From NCBI GenBank assembly GCA_944333305.1, contig CALVKV010000077.1:1-6222 (forward strand): DNA of 6,222 bases, in the 5' to 3' direction. The notes beneath the pieces are model-generated. The model was given only the letters and a program-made list of their open reading frames with translations, was not told where the DNA came from and did not search any database. This DNA is from an uncultured Bacilli bacterium. GTDB taxonomy: Bacteria; Bacillota_I; Bacilli_A; RF39; UBA660. Below are positions 1 through 6,222 of the stretch, piece by piece; the first letter of the stretch is position 1, and each line of letters starts with the position of its first letter. The translations under genes were made by a program, and so were the position numbers.

Positions 1-27
1 TGTTATTAATTTTCATCTCAATTTGTG

Positions 28-60
28 CCTTTCAGAGGACTGAAAGGACGATAGAAAGGA
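28..60 (+). promoter_or_regulatory. Leader hairpin and ribosome binding site upstream of the SpoVID-like gene
   Basis: A perfect 8-bp inverted repeat, CCTTTCAG at 28-35 and CTGAAAGG at 40-47, has a 4-nt loop. The sequence GAAAGGA occurs twice, at 42-48 inside the hairpin and at 54-60 where it is the best Shine-Dalgarno for the gene starting at 74, although the 13-nt gap is longer than usual. CCTTTC at 28-33 could pair with either copy, so it might hide or free the ribosome binding site. No T-run follows, so it does not look like a terminator. The region further 5' is cut by the window edge and I see no convincing promoter in it. Confidence 0.35.
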
Positions 61-73
61 ATGTTAGAGAATT

Positions 74-904
74 ATGAGACAAATAATAACTTTAGAAAAA
101 GAAATAGCTTTTAAGACAATGGTAGGTGAAATTACAAGCATTTCATTAGAACCTGATTTAGCCTTTATAAATGATAGTGAAATTGAAGGTAATTTGGTGA
201 TTAGTGGTACTTATAAAATGACAGAAGCTAGTACTATTGAAGAAGAGTTTAATTATAAAATACCAGTAGAGATTATGCTTACTAGTTCGCTTGATGAAGA
301 GAAAAGGAAAATAGATATTAATAATTTTACTTATGGCATTGTTAATGAAGAGTCATTAGAAGTTAAAATAGAGGTATTAATTGAAGGCCTTGAAAAGGTT
401 GATATAGATGTAATAGAAGAAGATAGTGAAGAGGTCTTAGAAGAGGAGAAACTTGAAGATACTAAAGAAGATGTTAGAGAAGAAAAATCTTCTAGTGCAG
501 AGGTTTTAGATGATGCAATGGCAGAAGATGATATTGAAGTTTTAAAAACTGAAAATGAAGAAATAAATGATGATGCTTTACCTAACTTTGATGATGTGAG
601 TAATAAAATAAATTTAGAAGAAGAGACTGTTAGTTTAAATAAGAGTGATGATGTAGAAGTTAAGACTAATAATGAAAATAATAAAGAAGTTATGGATTCT
701 ATATTTGAGAGTTTTGCTAATACAGAAGAAACATATGCGACTTATTCTGTTTATATTTTGAGAGAAGATGATAATTTAGAGGAAGTTATGGCTAAATATA
801 AAACTAATAGAGAGACTATAGCAGAATATAACGATTTAGATAATTTAAAAATAGGTACAAAGTTAATTATACCTACAACTATTACGGAAACAGATGAAGG
901 ATAA
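74..904 (+). CDS. spoVID: SpoVID-like spore coat assembly protein with C-terminal LysM domain
   Basis: Predicted morphogenetic protein that helps the coat encase the forespore, acting on the mother-cell side of the spore surface. Residues 1-110 resemble the SPOCS/SpoVID N-terminal domain: the pattern LEKEIAFK...ISLEPDL followed by an ISGTYKM strand is characteristic. Residues about 111-205 are a low-complexity linker very rich in Glu and Asp. Residues 207-223 form a short helix-like segment, as just before the LysM domain of SpoVID, and 225-268 match a LysM domain (YSVYILREDDNLEEVMAKY...IAEYNDL...KIGTKLIIP). At 276 residues it is much shorter than the roughly 575-residue Bacillus subtilis protein, mostly because the linker is short. 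The ATG at 74 gives a natural N-terminus for the family; an ATG at 61 is out of frame. It overlaps the next gene by 11 bp, and that gene is YsxE-like, the usual partner of spoVID, which strengthens the call. A SipL-type coat protein is the alternative. Confidence 0.82.
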   Translation: MRQIITLEKEIAFKTMVGEITSISLEPDLAFINDSEIEGNLVISGTYKMTEASTIEEEFNYKIPVEIMLTSSLDEEKRKIDINNFTYGIVNEESLEVKIEVLIEGLEKVDIDVIEEDSEEVLEEEKLEDTKEDVREEKSSSAEVLDDAMAEDDIEVLKTENEEINDDALPNFDDVSNKINLEEETVSLNKSDDVEVKTNNENNKEVMDSIFESFANTEETYATYSVYILREDDNLEEVMAKYKTNRETIAEYNDLDNLKIGTKLIIPTTITETDEG

Positions 905-1772
905 ATGTATAAGTAAATATACATATTTAAAAGATATTAGAGTTTTATCTTTTGATGATGAGAAAGTAATAATAAAAAGAAAAAAGAAATATGATATTGA
1001 AAAAATATATAAATATTTAGATGATCATAATGTTAATAGCTATTTAAGACCATTTAAGGTAACTGAAGAGGAGTTATATTTTAATTATTTAGATAAAAGA
1101 AATTTAGATAATGATGAGGTTGCTAAACATTTAGTTTATGCTCTTAGTGATTTGCAAAATAAAACTACTGTTTATAAGGAAGTAGATAAAGATAAATTAA
1201 AAGAAGAATATGATGAGTTTAATAGAAAAATAAATTATTTAGAAGAATATTATTTTACTTTACAGGACTTAGTAGAAAATAAAGTTTATATGGCTCCTTC
1301 TGAATACCTTTTTATAAGAAATGTTTCTATTATATATAGCGCTTTAAATTATGCTAAAAGTTTGGTAGAGTCTTGGTATAAAATAATGAGAGAAAAAACA
1401 AGAGAAAGATATGTTTATGCCCATGGGAAATGTGAACTTAATCATTTTATTGCTGCTACTAATGATTATTTCATAAGTTTAGAAAAAGCTCATTTGGCAA
1501 AACCTGCAGAGGATTTTATACATTTTTTTAAGAGTAATTGTATGGATGCAGATATGATAAGTAATTTTAGATTATATCAACATAGGTATCATTATAAAGA
1601 GGAGGAATATCTTTATTTACTTATAAATATTACGATACCTCTTAAGATAGACATTTATCCTTCTAGTTTAGATAAATGTGTAGAATTAGGAGTTTTTTTT
1701 GATAAATTAAAATTGACGAGTGAATTTGTTTTAAAAAATGAGAAAGATAAGAAGCAGTATGAAAAGCACTAA
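894..1772 (+). CDS. ysxE: YsxE/CotS-like spore coat pseudokinase
   Basis: A 292-residue protein with a degenerate aminoglycoside-phosphotransferase/CotS kinase-like fold, probably a structural spore-coat component. The marker is HGKCELNHF at 177-185, in the place of the HGDxxxxN catalytic loop, and ISLEKAHLAKPAEDFIHFF at 194-212, in the place of the metal-binding IDxExAxxGxPxxDL segment. By this alignment the catalytic Asp is Lys179, the loop Asn is His184 and the metal-binding Asp is Ser195, so phosphotransfer is unlikely. The N-terminal KVIIKRKKKYDIEKIYKYL fits the beta strand and helix of the N-lobe. The start ATG lies inside the end of the upstream SpoVID-like gene (11-bp overlap) with a weak GGAAA site just upstream, implying translational coupling in one sporulation operon. 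In Bacillus subtilis ysxE also follows spoVID. The family call rests on weak motifs plus this order. Confidence 0.68.
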   Translation: MKDKCISKYTYLKDIRVLSFDDEKVIIKRKKKYDIEKIYKYLDDHNVNSYLRPFKVTEEELYFNYLDKRNLDNDEVAKHLVYALSDLQNKTTVYKEVDKDKLKEEYDEFNRKINYLEEYYFTLQDLVENKVYMAPSEYLFIRNVSIIYSALNYAKSLVESWYKIMREKTRERYVYAHGKCELNHFIAATNDYFISLEKAHLAKPAEDFIHFFKSNCMDADMISNFRLYQHRYHYKEEEYLYLLINITIPLKIDIYPSSLDKCVELGVFFDKLKLTSEFVLKNEKDKKQYEKH

Positions 1773-1952
1773 TTCTATTAATAATAATAAAGCATGAATT
1801 CTTGTAACTAAAAATAAAAGTAATATTGCTTGATAACAGATTATAACTGCTAAAGCTAGAAGTGCTCCTAAGTAAAGAAGACTTGTTCTTCTTTTTTGTT
1901 TGCAAAAATTGCATCTACAAAAGGGACTGTGTTTATTTCCTTTGAATTTCAT
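1731..1952 (-). CDS. Small two-segment membrane protein with Cys-rich N-terminus
   Basis: A 73-residue protein of unknown function. The N-terminal head holds His8 and the cluster CRCNFC (Cys12, Cys14, Cys17) followed by the basic stretch KQKRR, which could bind a metal such as zinc. Two hydrophobic segments follow, about residues 24-48 and 53-73, and the protein ends in the second one, so it is probably an integral membrane hairpin with the Cys-rich end in the cytoplasm. The chosen ATG (1952-1950) is preceded by AGGTGATG, a good match to the extended Shine-Dalgarno; a GTG and another ATG lie 9 and 6 bases further 5' but sit inside that ribosome binding site. Codon choice (A/T-ending, AGA for Arg) matches the real genes here. 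Its last 42 bp overlap the end of the YsxE-like gene tail to tail. A mother-cell sporulation promoter may lie upstream, so a role in sporulation is possible but unproven. Confidence 0.62.
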   Translation of the reverse strand: MKFKGNKHSPFCRCNFCKQKRRTSLLYLGALLALAVIICYQAILLLFLVTRIHALLLLIELVLFILLLIFLIF

Positions 1953-1967
1953 AAACATCACCTGTAA

Positions 1968-1994
1968 TAGTTTATGAAATAATAAAAAAGATGT
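1968..1994 (-). promoter_or_regulatory. Candidate sigma-K/sigma-E type promoter for the small membrane protein
   Basis: Read on the minus strand, CATAAACTA (1976-1968) fits the sigma-K -10 consensus CATAnnnTA and comes within one base of the sigma-E form CATACAnT. AC at 1994-1993, 16 bases upstream, fits the short sigma-K -35 element. It is 4 bp from the end of the ribosome binding site arm, so the 5' leader would be very short. These motifs carry little information in AT-rich DNA. The call is supported mainly by the sporulation genes next door. Confidence 0.35.
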
Positions 1995-2011
1995 TAAAAA
2001 TCTAAATTTAA

Positions 2012-2020
2012 TGATAAAAT
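2012..2020 (+). promoter_or_regulatory. Extended -10 promoter for the 2041 gene and dnaI
   Basis: TGATAAAAT is an extended -10 (TGn plus TAAAAT, five of six to TATAAT), followed 9 bases later by the ribosome binding site AGGTGAT. No clear -35 is seen, as expected for an extended -10 promoter. The same nine bases occur at 4338-4346. The transcript leader would be only about 10-15 nt. Confidence 0.5.
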
Positions 2021-2040
2021 GTAATTAGCAGGTGATGTTT

Positions 2041-2481
2041 ATGCATGAAGATTTAGATAAAACAGATAGAATAGCTAGAAAAGTTATGGGTTTTAGAGAA
2101 GATGAAGAATTAGAGTATGATAAAGTTGTTGAACATTATGCTTTTCTTTTAGGTTATTATGCCACTAATTTAACTGATGAAGAGTTTGTAAATATAGAAT
2201 ATTATGAAAGCTTAAATTATAGTTTTAATTATTGTACTGGTGGCTGTTTAGAAGAATATCTTTATACAGACTTGAATACTGATAGTTTAAGATTGAAAGC
2301 TAGTGAGAATGTGCATTATAGTGCCATATTAACAGGAGCTTCTAAAATAGTAGGTCGTTTTAATAATCTTGGTTTAGAAAATATGGCTTCTATTATGGGA
2401 TCGGCTTTTTATGTTATTGCTAACGCAATATATAATTTTGAAAAAGATTTTGAAGATGATAATAGTAAAGTGTTTAGTTAG
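2041..2481 (+). CDS. Uncharacterised acidic protein encoded upstream of dnaI
   Basis: I do not recognise this 146-residue protein. It is acidic and looks mostly helical, with no signal peptide and no long hydrophobic span except a moderately non-polar helix near residues 112-132 (MASIMGSAFYVIANAI). It has two cysteines four apart (Cys65 and Cys69, CTGGC). The ATG at 2041 is preferred because AGGTGAT (2030-2036) ends 4 bases before it; in-frame GTG 2032 and ATG 2035 lie inside that ribosome binding site. It ends 11 bp before dnaI with the dnaI ribosome binding site at its stop codon, so the two are cotranscribed. In Bacillus the gene before dnaI is dnaB, a much larger replication initiation protein. 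Nothing here resembles the DnaB/DnaD domains, so a link to replication is suggested only by position. Confidence 0.75.
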   Translation: MHEDLDKTDRIARKVMGFREDEELEYDKVVEHYAFLLGYYATNLTDEEFVNIEYYESLNYSFNYCTGGCLEEYLYTDLNTDSLRLKASENVHYSAILTGASKIVGRFNNLGLENMASIMGSAFYVIANAIYNFEKDFEDDNSKVFS

Positions 2482-2492
2482 GAAGTGTAGTT

Positions 2493-3398
2493 ATGAGGAA
2501 AGTTGGTACTTTAGTTAAGAAAAATGATGTTACTAAATTAAAAAGTTATTATGGTGAAGCGTTAAGTGATGCTTATTTTAAGAATTATGTAGATAAAATA
2601 GATTTACCTTTAGAAGCTTTAATTAAATATACTTCTAGCATTGAAGATTGTGTTAGAGAGGAAGAAAACTGTAAAAAGTGTAAAGGCTTAAAGAATTGCC
2701 CTAATGCTTTAAGAGGACATGTTTATACAGCTTTAAAGGATGGCAATGGCTTAAACTTTAGTTATTTACCTTGTTCTAAGCTTATTAAAGAAGAAAATAC
2801 TTATGCTTATAAAAAGAATATTACTTGTTTTGATTTACCTAAAGAAATAAGTGATGCTAGTTTTTCTAAGGCTTATTGTGATGATAATAAAAGACTTCCT
2901 ATTTTTAAATATTTTAAAGAATTTATGGATAGTTATTTAAAAAATAAAAGTGGTAAAGGGTTATATTTAAGTGGTTCTTTTGGGAGTGGAAAGACTTATT
3001 TAATTGCAGCACTTTTTAATGAGCTTGCTAAGAAAAATATAAATTCGGCTTTAGTATATTATCCTGAGTTACTTAGAAGTTTAAAGTCATCTTTTGGAAG
3101 TGATTACGAAGAAAGGTTTGATTTTATTAAGACTGTACCTTTATTATTATTAGATGATATAGGAGCAGAAAATACGACTGCATGGAGTAGAGATGAAGTA
3201 TTAGGACCGATACTTCAGTATAGAATGGAAGAAGAATTACCTACTTTCTTTACTTCTAATTTAAGTTTAAAAGAGTTAGAGAATGCGTTAAGTATTACTA
3301 GTAATGGCAGTGAAAAGGTTAAAGCGAAAAGGATTATTGAAAGAATTAAACAGTTAACTGTACCTTTAGAATTAATAAGTAAAAATAGAAGGAATTAA
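2493..3398 (+). CDS. dnaI: Primosomal protein DnaI, replicative helicase loader (AAA+ ATPase)
   Basis: Loads the replicative DNA helicase at the origin or at restarted forks, using ATP, in the cytoplasm. Residues 1-110 form the helicase-binding N-terminal region with a probable zinc site (Cys60-x2-Cys63, Cys69, His76, Cys94), as known for Bacillus DnaI. Residues about 130-300 are the AAA+ domain: Walker A GSFGSGKT at 161-168, Walker B LLLLDDIG at 207-214, sensor 1 TFFTSN at 251-256, and a basic helix KAKRIIERI at 277-285 with the likely arginine finger. The length of 301 residues is close to the roughly 311 of B. subtilis DnaI, with no missing motif. The ribosome binding site AGGAAG overlaps the stop codon of the upstream gene. 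DnaC-type loaders share the AAA+ core but lack the Cys/His-rich N-terminus, so DnaI is the better name. Confidence 0.93.
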   Translation: MRKVGTLVKKNDVTKLKSYYGEALSDAYFKNYVDKIDLPLEALIKYTSSIEDCVREEENCKKCKGLKNCPNALRGHVYTALKDGNGLNFSYLPCSKLIKEENTYAYKKNITCFDLPKEISDASFSKAYCDDNKRLPIFKYFKEFMDSYLKNKSGKGLYLSGSFGSGKTYLIAALFNELAKKNINSALVYYPELLRSLKSSFGSDYEERFDFIKTVPLLLLDDIGAENTTAWSRDEVLGPILQYRMEEELPTFFTSNLSLKELENALSITSNGSEKVKAKRIIERIKQLTVPLELISKNRRN

Positions 3399-3408
3399 GA
3401 TAAAAGTT

Positions 3409-3417
3409 TGTTATAAT
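3409..3417 (+). promoter_or_regulatory. Extended -10 promoter for the TPR protein
   Basis: TGTTATAAT is a perfect extended -10 (TG, one base, TATAAT), 11 bp after the dnaI stop codon, with no clear -35. The ribosome binding site AGGAGG starts 6 bases after it, so transcription would begin at or next to the ribosome binding site and give a nearly leaderless mRNA. No terminator hairpin separates it from dnaI, so read-through from dnaI is also likely. Confidence 0.6.
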
Positions 3418-3434
3418 AGTATTAGGAGGTAGTT

Positions 3435-4304
3435 ATGGATAACAAAATTAATAATATGTTAAACAAATTTTTGGAGGATGCAAATTTGGAAACGGAGGAT
3501 GATATTCAAAAAGCATTAGATGAGTTTGCAAAAAAATATAATGATGGTGATATTGAATATGAAAATACAGCTTTAGATGATGCTTATGAGTTGTTAGAAC
3601 AGGCTCAAGAAGCTAAAACTAAAAAAGAAGCTATAAGTCTTGCTAAAAAAGCTTTTAAGACTAGTAATGCTTGTTTTGATGCAAAGTTATTTTTAATGGA
3701 TTTGGAAGAAAATACAATTAAAGCTAATAAAATTTTAGACGATAGTCTTGCTTTTGAGAAGAAAAGACTAGAACAAGAAGGCTTTTTTGATGAAGATAAT
3801 ATTGGACATTTTTATGGCCTTTTTGAAACAAGACCATATATTAGGGGACTTTATATAAAAGCTAGAACTTTGAGTGAAGCTGGTAAATATAAGAAAGCAA
3901 TTGATGTTTGTAAAGAGATACTTAGATTAAATGAGAATGATAATACAGGTGCTAGATATATGTTAATGGCTTTATATGCAGTTTTAGAAGAAGAAAAGCC
4001 AATGCTTGATTTATATAAAAAATATAAAGAAGAATATTTAGAAATGTTATTTCCGCTTTTTGTTCTTTATTATAAACAAGAAAATAATGTTAAAGCTAAA
4101 AAGTATTTAGAAAAGATTAATAACGCTAATAAGAGCTTTGTAAAATTTTATAAAGGCAATATTAATTATGAAGATAATGCTATACCAGGATATTATTTTA
4201 AAGGAGCTGCTAGTGAAGTGCTAATGTATATGGAAGATTATGCTTTTCTTACAAATACTTTAAATGATATAGATGATTATGTTATAGAAAATAGTAAGAA
4301 TTAA
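3435..4304 (+). CDS. TPR-repeat protein of the ST7-like/SEC-C-associated type
   Basis: A 289-residue cytoplasmic protein built of helical repeats, probably a protein-binding scaffold. Its signature is ETRPYIRGLYIKARTL at 131-146, then GKYKKAIDVCKEILRLNENDNTGARYML at 150-177. The combination ETRPYxR... plus LNxxDNxGxRY...L is familiar from bacterial TPR proteins related to ST7, in which the first helix starts with ETRPYMRA. The C-terminal PGYYFKGAASEVLMYM segment (251-266) also fits the end of that family. The N-terminal 60 residues are acidic and helical. No transmembrane span or signal peptide is seen. The molecular role of this family is not known to me. The ATG is set by AGGAGG (3424-3429) with ideal spacing, and the gene has its own promoter. 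Confidence 0.75.
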   Translation: MDNKINNMLNKFLEDANLETEDDIQKALDEFAKKYNDGDIEYENTALDDAYELLEQAQEAKTKKEAISLAKKAFKTSNACFDAKLFLMDLEENTIKANKILDDSLAFEKKRLEQEGFFDEDNIGHFYGLFETRPYIRGLYIKARTLSEAGKYKKAIDVCKEILRLNENDNTGARYMLMALYAVLEEEKPMLDLYKKYKEEYLEMLFPLFVLYYKQENNVKAKKYLEKINNANKSFVKFYKGNINYEDNAIPGYYFKGAASEVLMYMEDYAFLTNTLNDIDDYVIENSKN

Positions 4305-4316
4305 AACTAGAACTTC

Positions 4317-4346
4317 TTTACATATTTATTTAAGATATGATAAAAT
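4317..4346 (+). promoter_or_regulatory. Promoter of the G-tract leader transcript
   Basis: TTTACA (4317-4322, five of six to TTGACA), an 18-bp spacer and TAAAAT (4341-4346) preceded by TGA form the most complete promoter in the window. Transcription would start near 4353, about 20 nt before the ribosome binding site of the leader ORF at 4388. It starts only 13 bp after the TPR gene stop codon, with no terminator between them. Confidence 0.6.
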
Positions 4347-4387
4347 TAAATCATTAAAGATAAAGATAAGGAAAGAAGGTAAAAAAT

Positions 4388-4447
4388 ATGAAGAAAGCAT
4401 GTTTACAATATGTTACCTGGGGGGGGGGTCATTTAACCCTAACCTAA
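4388..4447 (+). CDS. Short leader ORF (19 codons) containing the G10 tract
   Basis: An ATG with a strong ribosome binding site (AGAAGG at 4374-4379, 8-nt spacing) behind a good promoter opens a 19-residue ORF, MKKACLQYVTWGGGHLTLT. The G10 tract supplies the Trp-Gly-Gly-Gly part. As written the ORF stops at TAA 4445-4447. With one extra G it would read 34 codons and stop at TAA 4489-4491, inside the downstream hairpin. With one fewer G, or two more, it would stop at TAA 4434-4436. The peptide resembles no product I know, and none of the three frames reaches the surface protein gene at 4622, so this is probably a regulatory leader rather than a split gene. That it is translated is inferred only from the start signals. 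Confidence 0.5.
   Translation: MKKACLQYVTWGGGHLTLT
4419..4428 (+). repeat. Mononucleotide G10 tract
   Basis: Ten consecutive G in a very AT-rich sequence, the longest G run in the window by far. Tracts of this length are classic slipped-strand mutation sites, known for instance as poly-G phase-variation tracts in Campylobacter. Here the tract sits inside the translated leader ORF. Homopolymer length is also a common sequencing error, so the exact count needs checking against reads. Confidence 0.95.
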
Positions 4448-4510
4448 GTAATAAAATTACTTTCTTTCATAGTGTAAAAAGAATAGAGTAAGAGATTATT
4501 CTATTCTTTT
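4446..4510 (+). promoter_or_regulatory. Attenuator-like set of alternative hairpins
   Basis: Three mutually exclusive stems can be drawn. Stem A: AAGTAAT (4446-4452) with ATTACTT (4456-4462). Stem B: TTACT and TTCTTT (4457-4467) with AAAGAA (4478-4483) and AGTAA (4487-4491), 11 pairs with a 3-nt bulge. Stem C: the terminator-like hairpin 4477-4510. Stem A would use part of the 5' strand of B, and B would use the 5' strand of C. That is the protector, antiterminator and terminator order of a classic attenuator, directly after the leader ORF. Chance pairing is a real risk in AT-rich DNA. Confidence 0.45.
4477..4510 (+). terminator. Terminator-like hairpin with GAGA loop upstream of the surface protein gene
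   Basis: A 15-bp stem (one G-T pair) joins AAAAGAATAGAGTAA at 4477-4491 to TTATTCTATTCTTTT at 4496-4510 through a GAGA tetraloop at 4492-4495. The T-rich end of the stem (TTCTTTT) would serve as the U-tract, which is short because ATAATG follows. It lies between the leader ORF and the gene at 4622, so if it works it limits transcription into that gene. A TATAAT hexamer at 4510-4515 overlaps its base but lacks a -35 or TGn. Confidence 0.6.
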
Positions 4511-4525
4511 ATAATGTCAAAATAA

Positions 4526-4551
4526 TTGATACAGAGGATTATATGTGTCAA
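4526..4551 (+). other. Inverted repeat upstream of the surface protein gene
   Basis: TTGATACA (4526-4533) and TGTGTCAA (4544-4551) form an 8-bp imperfect palindrome (one G-T pair) around GAGGATTATA. TTGATA could also be a -35 element, but no good -10 lies at 16-18 bp, and TATAAG at 4573-4578 is too far away. It may be an operator or a small mRNA hairpin. Support is weak. Confidence 0.25.
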
Positions 4552-4621
4552 TATTAAAATAGTTATTTAAGGTATAAGAATAAGTGATATAGATAAGAAT
4601 AAAGAATATGGAGAGACGTAT

Positions 4622-6037
4622 ATGAAAGATAAAAAGAAGAAAGTAACAGCAATAATTATAAGTATATTAATAGTATTAATTCTATTACTTGCTATCGCTT
4701 ATGCTTACTTTTCTACACAACTATCAGGAACAGATCAAATAGTAAAAGTAGGAGAGTTAGAATTAGTATTAGATGAAACTAGTGAAGGGATAAGTTTAGA
4801 TAGTGCAATAGGTATAAGTGATAAAAAAGGATTAGAATTAGAAGGTTCAAATTTTAAACTAATAAATAATGGAAATAAGGCAGTAGATTATACAATCTAT
4901 TTAGATGATAATAGTATAGGAGATAATGATACTAGAATAGATGATAAGTATTTAAAGTATAATTTAAATAAAAATGGATTAGACAGTGGTGCAACATTAC
5001 TAACAAGAATAGGAGCGAATCCAAATAGAATATTAGACTCTGGAACAATAGAAGGAAATAGTACAAATGAATATAATTTAAAGTTATGGATAACTGATGA
5101 AGTAGATGGTAACTATTCTGGCCAAGTATTTAGTGGAAAGTTAAGAGTAGAAGTAAGCCAAGAAAGACCATTAGCAGTAGATACATTATTAGCGAAAGCA
5201 AATTCAGAAGACTTAGATTATAATAATGCAACTAGTGAACAACAAAAAGAGATGTGGACGTTTAGCCATCCTGCAACAGAACAGACAGAAGCTTTAACAG
5301 ATTATAGATATATAGGAAGTAATCCTAATAATTATGTAACATTTAATGATGAATTATGGAGAATAATAGGAGTGTTTACAGTAGATGATGGAACAGGAAA
5401 TATGGAACAAAGACTAAAGTTAATAAGAATGCAAACTACAGGTTCTATTTACTTTGGACCAACAAGTGATTGGACTAGTTCACCATTAATGGAGAATTTA
5501 AATTCAGGAGATTATTGGACTAATAATTTGAATGCTGAAGCAAAAAATATGATAGGAGATACTCTATGGTATTTAGGTGGAACCTCAAACTTTGAAAGTT
5601 CAACTACTGGATTGACGAGTCATTTTTATTCATATGAGCGAGGAACAACTGTATATAATGGAAGAGCTACAAATTGGGTAGGCAAAGTTGGCTTAATGTA
5701 TCCTAGTGATATAGGATATGCCACAAGTGGAGATACAACAATGGATAGAAATAGATGTTTAGATATACAATTAAGTCATTGGCATGATCAGCGTGTACCA
5801 GGAGCATCTCGTTGTGCAACTAATGATTGGTTATCGATAGTTACTACTACTACTATTACACCTTATACCATTAGGTCTGATTATGTGTTTCGTATTAGTG
5901 GAACAAGTTATTTGCAATACATTTTAACCTATAATAACTTTTTTGTTATTAATCCAGTTGTCTATTTAACATCTAATGTTAAAATTATAGAGGGAGATGG
6001 AAGTAGTAGTAATCCTTATATTTTTCGTAAATTTTAG
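4622..6037 (+). CDS. Membrane-anchored surface protein: TasA/camelysin-like N-half, DUF6273-like C-domain
   Basis: A 471-residue exported protein. Lys-rich residues 2-7 and a hydrophobic segment at 8-30 form a signal anchor, followed at once by AYFSTQLSGTDQIVKVGELELVL, typical of the mature start of SipW-type, TasA/CalY-like and related beta-sandwich surface proteins. Residues 31-180 fit that fold (NNGNKAVDYTIYL, GNYSGQVFSGKLRVEV). After a linker (181-230) comes a domain at about 231-471 with YVTFNDELWRIIG (238-250), GKVGLMYPSDIGYA (354-367), Cys379 and Cys398 which could form a disulfide, and NPVVYLTSN (444-452) before GDGSSSNPY. This resembles domains of the DUF6273 type that occur as many paralogues in gut Bacilli; the function is unknown, and adhesion or ligand binding is a guess. 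The ATG follows TGGAGAG (4609-4615) at good spacing. Arginine codons change from AGA to CGT near codon 391. Expression is probably governed by the G-tract leader upstream. Confidence 0.75.
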   Translation: MKDKKKKVTAIIISILIVLILLLAIAYAYFSTQLSGTDQIVKVGELELVLDETSEGISLDSAIGISDKKGLELEGSNFKLINNGNKAVDYTIYLDDNSIGDNDTRIDDKYLKYNLNKNGLDSGATLLTRIGANPNRILDSGTIEGNSTNEYNLKLWITDEVDGNYSGQVFSGKLRVEVSQERPLAVDTLLAKANSEDLDYNNATSEQQKEMWTFSHPATEQTEALTDYRYIGSNPNNYVTFNDELWRIIGVFTVDDGTGNMEQRLKLIRMQTTGSIYFGPTSDWTSSPLMENLNSGDYWTNNLNAEAKNMIGDTLWYLGGTSNFESSTTGLTSHFYSYERGTTVYNGRATNWVGKVGLMYPSDIGYATSGDTTMDRNRCLDIQLSHWHDQRVPGASRCATNDWLSIVTTTTITPYTIRSDYVFRISGTSYLQYILTYNNFFVINPVVYLTSNVKIIEGDGSSSNPYIFRKF

Positions 6038-6058
6038 TTTAATATAATTATATCAACT

Positions 6059-6087
6059 AAAGAATCTTTATGATTCTTTTTATTTTC
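6059..6087 (+). terminator. Intrinsic terminator of the surface protein gene
   Basis: AAAGAATC (6059-6066) and GATTCTTT (6072-6079) form a perfect 8-bp stem with a 5-nt loop, followed by a T-rich tail (TTATTTT). It starts 21 bp after the stop codon. The stem has only two G-C pairs, but the layout is typical of low-GC Firmicutes. A 9-bp direct repeat TTTCCCATA at 6084-6092 and 6094-6102 follows, with no evident role. Confidence 0.75.
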
Positions 6088-6130
6088 CCATAATTTCCCA
6101 TATTTTTTTAATAATTCTTACACTTTTAAT

Positions 6131-6139
6131 TGATATGAT
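6131..6139 (+). promoter_or_regulatory. Extended -10 promoter of an unfinished downstream transcript
   Basis: TGATATGAT is an extended -10 (TGn plus TATGAT, five of six to TATAAT). It is followed by AAAGGA (6153-6158) and an ATG at 6167, 8 nt further on. That ATG is followed at once by TAG TAG. A GTG at 6160 opens 14 codons before TAG at 6202, but the ribosome binding site is too close to it. The window ends at 6222, so the gene served by this promoter cannot be seen. Apart from the terminator upstream I see nothing else in 6088-6222. Confidence 0.45.
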
Positions 6140-6222
6140 TAATTTGTAAAAGAAAGGAAGTGGTAAATGTAGTAGAGAAATTTAAGTTACGTTTACAACT
6201 ATAGTTTTTTTACATAAATTAT

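Follow-up and report, generated by a model that had tools for sequence, protein, structure and literature searches.

Here we describe a leader family built around a homopolymeric G tract, first seen in a 6,222-nucleotide stretch of DNA (hereafter the window: contig CALVKV010000077.1, positions 1 to 6,222, of assembly GCA_944333305.1) from an uncultured gut Bacilli genome near Candidatus Onthousia. In the window, a run of ten Gs lies within a short open reading frame (ORF) that is followed by a terminator-like hairpin and then by the gene of an exported surface protein, and the same arrangement recurs in up to 37 copies per genome across the genus. Judged from sequence comparison, the family is quite probably a genome-wide, phase-variable attenuator of surface genes, in which the number of Gs would decide where the ribosome stops on the leader.

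All parts of the window leader lie on the forward strand. A Shine-Dalgarno (SD) sequence, GAAAGAAGGT (4371-4380), precedes a leader ORF that starts at ATG 4388 and, with ten Gs as assembled, runs for 19 codons (4388-4447) across the tract at 4419-4428; five overlapping G6 matches stand against 0.08 expected from shuffles. Another ATG, at 4399 and in a different frame, begins an ORF of 30 codons that ends at 4491 with G10; it is probably not the start used, because it lies 18 nucleotides (nt) from the SD versus 7 nt for ATG 4388. With G10 the leader frame stops at 4445-4447 and with G9 or G12 at 4434-4436, both predicted OFF, while with G11 it stops at 4489-4491, predicted ON, within the 5′ arm of an intrinsic-terminator-like hairpin at 4477-4510 (arms 4477-4491 and 4496-4510, 93% complementary). 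Between the early stops and this hairpin lies an anti-SD strand, UACUUUCUUUC (4458-4468), forming the 3′ strand of a putative long-range helix, P1, of which the SD is the 5′ strand. A first-pass annotation made from the window alone had already given the SD, the 19-codon ORF, the G10 run, a 15-bp terminator-like stem and the three stop positions, and we confirmed all of these. It had also placed a promoter ahead of the leader: our promoter scan recovered the site (TTTACA-18-TAAAAT with TG before the −10, 4317-4346), although such matches occur in the window at chance level (41 vs 40.7 expected). Over the family, a −10-like motif is found 12-45 nt upstream of the SD in 119 of 136 copies, where 67.2 would be expected from mononucleotide shuffles.

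From these parts we infer leader translation, transcription termination, a rate of slippage and a function of P1 that together would make a switch. A ribosome would load on the leader SD and translate through the G tract; in two of the three tract phases it would stop early, in the window 5 or 16 nt past the tract and before the anti-SD strand, whereupon P1 and the terminator would fold and transcription would end. In the third phase (G11, G8 or G14 in the window) the ribosome would run on and stop within the 5′ arm of the terminator, blocking the hairpin, so that RNA polymerase could reach the surface gene. P1 may serve to occlude the SD after the first ribosome, and slippage at the poly-G run would shift cells between the two states. 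It is also conceivable that the anti-SD strand masks the SD of the downstream gene, which would make a double lock. The window as assembled, with ten Gs, is predicted to be in an OFF phase.

G runs of at least seven were surveyed in the window and 80 dnaI loci, and the same leader appeared in eight other loci. A gapped pattern leading from the SD to seven Gs was then matched in 24 of 35 genomes of the genus and in three of 193 genomes of the family (G019, G009 and G011, all three also in the genus list); read backwards, it gave three matches in the genus, all in one genome, and three in the 193 family genomes, in two of them. In viral contigs the pattern had no match. The main set comprises 139 copies from 24 genomes, window copy included, with one chance-like pattern match (G021:C11) not taken in; 134 of them could be parsed for frames, three being too short and two (L115, L147) lacking the P1 strand. 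These two carry a palindromic insert in place of the remaining leader, related to a TTATSCTTAAGCATAA-like palindrome that sits directly 3′ of the G tract in L116, L166 and L184. A covariance model was built from 57 of 64 representatives, a choice that favours the consensus since the seven left out had odd or misplaced terminators; it matches 34 of the 35 genus genomes with up to 37 matches per genome (418 as the column total). In a family sample of 145 genomes, which holds two genus genomes, weak matches appeared in eight genomes of other genera. For a divergent set we kept 82 of 100 model matches, setting aside eight at or cut by a contig end and ten low-scoring extras. Twenty of the 82 rows dropped out of the frame parse (seven without a tract of at least six, three short, and ten in which the rule found no hairpin, several of which show one by eye), and six had no ORF. 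An upstream open frame ends close to the SD (within 40 nt) in 29 of 136 copies, so that some are intercistronic, lying in arrays. A distant relative, L066:6045, has a G10 leader in which, by eye, two frames are short and one is longer, and a surface-type protein with a transmembrane anchor downstream, without a clear terminator.

An ORF reaches the tract in 130 of the 134 parsed copies. The distance from ATG to tract ranges from 22 to 51 nt and is mostly 22, 25, 28, 31, 34, 40 or 43 (118 of the 138 copies with an ATG near the SD), and in 115 of 139 copies ATGs occur only in the in-frame phase. Two phases end 5′ of the anti-SD strand and the third in the 5′ arm of the terminator in 119 of 130 copies; a recount independent of the frame assignment found this stop pattern in 120 of 130, against 10.9% in dinucleotide shuffles with landmarks fixed. 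The 130 copies fall into 28 clusters at about 75% identity. Five of the 28 cluster representatives depart from the pattern; for L114, L198 and L227 the reason is that the hairpin finder took another stem. Counted from the first base of the anti-SD strand, the long stop lies 27 or 30 nt on in 126 of 130 copies and at a multiple of three in 129, and this spacing is held although two unlike terminator sequences are in use. Among divergent genus members plus one genome from outside the genus (G125), two phases stop short of the terminator by more than 12 nt and one reaches it in 52 of 56 parsed copies, the long phase of these 52 ending in the 5′ arm in 29 copies, in the loop in eight and past the hairpin in 15. 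Leader ORF, terminator and frame logic are all kept among relatives, which speaks for the first-pass annotation, whose proposed checks included such a comparison of homologues.

Tract length also varies among relatives, whereas a fixed ten would have spoken against that annotation. Over the 139 copies the length is 9 (76 copies), 10 (20), 8 (15), 6 (14), 7 (7), 11 (5), 12 (1) or 13 (1), six being the lower limit of the search pattern. Of 190 pairs of copies at least 88% alike over at least 220 nt, 105 differ in tract length; for example, L216 with G10 and L218 with G11 are 99.8% alike over 509 nt. The predicted state differs in 34 of the 172 near-identical pairs for which both states are known. 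As assembled, 107 of 130 copies are predicted OFF and 23 ON, 21 of the latter stopping in the arm and two just before a stem misplaced by the finder. ON copies are thus rarer than one third (P = 5e-5, kinship ignored), and a single genome, G022, has three ON among 27 copies. Six copies (L111, L159, L162, L155, L342, L398) have interrupted or shortened tracts such as GGAGGGGGG, which should slip less and may represent locked states. The first-pass observation is thus confirmed, and the comparison with relatives supports its interpretation as probably right for the most part.

A downstream gene was found for 123 of the 139 copies. By a crude rule, 121 of the 123 products have a membrane helix and/or a YA-type N-terminus, many of them reading SYAAF, SYAMF or YAYF, and 40 resemble the window protein at E 1e-5. 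Terminator and gene start are no more than 60 nt apart in 102 of 121 copies, a gap that offers little space for a further promoter; the window is among the other 19.

The RNA consensus of the family consists of two helices, namely P1, in which the SD pairs with the anti-SD strand over 10 bp (4371-4380 with 4459-4468 in the window), and the terminator. The first-pass annotation had proposed three alternative hairpins, of which these two stand; the third, pairing the Gs with CCCUAACC, appears in the fold of the window leader itself and is absent from the consensus, and we rejected the G tract as part of an RNA stem. The fold of 4353-4520 has a free energy of −47 kcal/mol (z −5.7), equalled by none of 200 shuffles. 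A generic terminator scan gave no entry for the A-U-rich stem at 4477-4510, and the curated Rfam leader and riboswitch families had no match at gathering score in the window. Over the 57 aligned copies the terminator is 94.8% paired, with exchange between C-G and U-A in 27 and 24 copies, and P1 is 98.8% paired, five of its ten pairs never varying. Both helices together show 26 double-change cells against 10.9 in shuffles, more than in any of 500. We also compared duplexes of SD and anti-SD strand within and between copies, using 56 divergent copies and 17 of the main set (every eighth): the mean is −12.45 kcal/mol for own strands versus −10.17 for swapped ones, and in eight of 11 groups the own strand is the better partner.

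Several observations weigh against the attenuator. P1 shows no double-sided changes in the main set, and over both helices other measures of covariation are at the level of shuffles (pairs with a double change, 2 vs 1.7) or below it (further pair types, 14 vs 15.7). In the swap comparison three of the 11 groups (G016, G125, G220) pair worse with their own strand, and just 28 of the 73 own duplexes come out among the best 10%. Given invariant pairs and this mixed result, P1 as a real helix is supported by the sequences, not proven. Masking a ribosome's footprint in 129 copies lowers the computed terminator probability to 0.018 at the long stop, compared with 0.91-0.92 with no ribosome or one at a short stop (two copies stay above 0.8 at the long stop), a result that is nearly true by construction because the long stop sits in the terminator arm. 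The tract differences noted above lie between genomes or paralogues, not inside one population. In four of the 134 parsed copies no ATG ORF runs to the tract, because of a stop codon in three and for lack of an ATG in L183; L155 has a stop at the first G. Sixteen of the 139 copies have no ORF of 100 amino acids starting within 400 nt, five of them with at least 800 nt of downstream sequence. Lastly, the subclass to which the window belongs carries a possible bypass promoter behind the terminator.

This last point leads to a rival explanation that we regard as possible, if doubtful, in which the window gene depends chiefly on a promoter of its own behind the terminator, so that the tract would change its expression little and would matter in the majority class that has no such promoter. 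By eye, a second promoter-like site with a degenerate −10 (TTGATA-17-CAATAT) lies at 4526-4554, and the scan proposes there an alternative −10, AATATT, at spacing 18 with 9 of 12 matches. TTGAT followed by A, G or T stands just 3′ of the terminator in ten of the 19 long-gap copies, window included, several with a good extended −10, TGTG-TANNAT, 17 nt on (by eye). In the closest relative, a gene of this kind stands at the same place behind TTGAAC..TGTGTTAGAAT, with no G run of seven or more and no leader visible by eye. That said, the −10 of the window, CAATAT, is degraded in comparison with TAAAAT, TAGTAT and TACTAT in its siblings. Given this weak site, the window attenuator may raise expression over a base level, not switch it fully. 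In the gap between terminator and gene, L207, L211, L212, L215, L217 and L226 carry a TGGTTATATAACCA-like palindrome followed by a −10-like TATAA, possibly an operator and a second promoter.

Other rivals concern the role of the tract itself. Control could be exerted after transcription, translation being governed by P1 or by a small C-rich RNA that pairs with the Gs, and the frame pattern being secondary. P1 does involve the leader SD and is highly conserved, and a G-repeat and small-RNA rheostat is known for Helicobacter tlpB, but such control predicts neither the two short stops and one long stop nor the in-frame leader lengths, and we consider it improbable. More improbable still is that the tract sets the spacing of a promoter straddling it, in the manner of Neisseria porA. 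Six of 30 sampled tracts from related genera do score at least 9 of 12 promoter matches, and two tracts in more distant Bacilli also look like promoter spacers (L045:3374, TTGCCA..G11-TATAAT; L071:7109, TTGAAA..G10-TATAAT). Within the genus, however, only two of 139 copies reach 9 of 12 at a spacing of 16-18 nt and none scores higher, so that this reading was rejected there; divergent copies score 9 in three and 8 in 21 of 75 (figures that carry no chance baseline), and the tract sits inside an ORF with its own SD. It is hardly credible that the tract is an assembly artefact or a neutral repeat: the source data are all assembled contigs, some of which end at the tract (L199), yet the leader, frame logic included, recurs in 24 of the 35 genomes of the genus. 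A coding-frame switch by fusion of leader and gene was rejected as well, since the longest leader frame of the window ends at 4491 and the gene starts at 4622.

The ribosome-controlled attenuator that we favour has known parallels. In the pyrBI operon of Escherichia coli, the position of the ribosome on a leader ORF decides the fate of an intrinsic terminator. The same principle underlies trp attenuation (as summarised in PMC3894217). Both systems sense the supply of nucleotides or amino acids, whereas here the input would be a heritable tract length; unlike them, the present leaders have no visible run of regulatory codons, and their consensus contains no competing antiterminator hairpin. The closest precedent is provided by the pil1 and pil3 loci of Streptococcus gallolyticus UCN34. 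There, GCAGA repeats (22 and 13 copies) in a leader-peptide gene change its frame, leaders of greater length run into or beyond a premature terminator whose formation is prevented by ribosomes, and the surface structure is low in most cells and high in some; this was tested with mutants and a reporter, and dependence on translation with chloramphenicol (Danne et al., 2014; PMC3894217). Slippage combined with ribosome-controlled attenuation, which the first-pass annotation had put forward, has thus been shown experimentally at pil1. The sequence features of pil1-type attenuation are all present in the new family: the repeat lies inside a small ORF with an SD and a start codon, as at 4388-4447 in the window; tract length moves the stop from well before to within the terminator; and a conserved hairpin with a T run, predicted to be an intrinsic terminator, stands between leader and gene. 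In both, a surface structure is the apparent target. The new family would therefore be a genome-scale homopolymer version of a kind of switch already known. In S. gallolyticus the repeat is a pentamer at two loci and out-of-frame repeat numbers are high, while here it is a homopolymer of 6-13 Gs, and of its three phases one is predicted ON. The present system is further set apart by an SD/anti-SD helix, by its genus-wide distribution with up to 37 copies per genome, and by a different surface protein family. We infer an independent origin.

Poly-G switches of other layouts are better known. In the Neisseria porA type, poly-G slippage in the promoter spacing is reported to control a surface protein (PMC3639595); there the tract lies in the promoter, not in a translated leader as here, and a porA-like layout is used by some related genera. 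In Campylobacter, a frame shift at poly-G breaks the regulated ORF itself (PMC11955535), unlike the leader frames of the window, which end before the gene and never join it. Among the papers listed by our literature searches, judged by titles and the openings of abstracts, there appeared to be no other description of a poly-G-switched leader attenuator or of such a system in Onthousia.

A direct repeat adjoins the tract. In the window, GTTTAC-AATAT-GTTACC (4401-4417) ends one base 5′ of the tract with an 11-bp period. Allowing two mismatches, GTTWAC-N5-GTTAMC ending 0-4 nt 5′ of the tract is present in 136 of the 139 main copies, against 0.16 expected from mononucleotide shuffles; the figures are 66 of 75 for divergent copies (0.11 expected) and four of 30 for tracts of other genera (0.02 expected). 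It also accompanies 12 of 15 other-genus tracts selected by the covariance model, a biased selection. Tracts of eight or more Gs occur in 23 of 28 other family genomes, eight of which had been picked for model matches, so that motif counts in them are not an unbiased sample. A looser pattern (TTAAC, 4-7 nt, TWRMC, tract) is found at 28 places in G101, 20 in G094 and five in G125, genomes with 43, 26 and 8 poly-G tracts, and in none of the remaining 25, nor in any when read backwards; the motif is not general to poly-G in the family, because 20 of the 23 tract-bearing genomes do not have it. One of them, G043, is another poly-G-rich lineage, with 69 tracts of G8 or longer in a genome of about 1.3 Mb and no match to the looser pattern. 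Five examples examined in G101 are TTGACG-Gn-TATAAT promoters, and in promoter settings the second half of the motif doubles as the −35 box. Five in G094 (L266, L275, L281, L286, L290), with the same motif before the tract, precede prepilin-like FTLIELLA starts by eye and are apparently coding-frame switches of pilin-like genes. Inside leaders the motif is conserved in its letters but not in the residues that they encode (TTTACAATAT vs TTCACTAAAT), and common descent and a role at the DNA level would both explain this conservation. A tentative and rather unlikely suggestion is that tract and repeat form a portable DNA cassette, placed in the leader in Onthousia and elsewhere in promoter spacers and pilin-like coding starts, with the repeat recognised by a factor responsible for making, protecting or mutating the tract. 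If true, this would be programmed, targeted phase variation over the whole surface repertoire in place of passive slippage.

As for its source, the gene order of the window is SpoVID-like, YsxE-like, dnaI, a TPR-protein gene, the leader and the exported protein. The DnaI of the window shares 95% identity with its counterpart in an uncultured Bacilli genome and 86% with those of two species of Candidatus Onthousia, a genus that NCBI places in Bacilli incertae sedis. The SpoVID-like and YsxE-like genes (74-1772; the YsxE match is below its cut-off) hint at spore formation in this uncultured lineage. The exported surface protein (4622-6037, 471 amino acids) has an N-terminal membrane helix followed, in a structure model of mean confidence (pLDDT) 76, by a beta-rich part. 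A fold search gave six weak beta-sandwich matches at E ≤ 0.001 (best 2.1e-4 at a TM-score of 0.28), which we did not use for naming, and a PDB profile search three matches at E 0.07-0.4, one annotated Pilin. Among ten downstream proteins scanned, none reached the cut-off of PF12389 (TasA/camelysin; 22.5 bits, with 12.0 for the window protein and 17.7 for L153) or of TIGR04088 (SipW-dependent; 19, with 12.6 in one protein), and two passed that of DUF6273.

With this family, what was a regulatory oddity of two S. gallolyticus pilus loci would extend across a whole genus, at up to 37 copies in one genome, and each cell could wear a different surface coat. The ON or OFF state could be read from tract lengths in metagenomes, so that the choice of surface repertoire by uncultured gut bacteria would become measurable, and the hundreds of natural variants could serve to test how a ribosome defeats a terminator. 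The motif common to the tracts, in turn, raises the question of whether a dedicated factor maintains these hypermutable G tracts.

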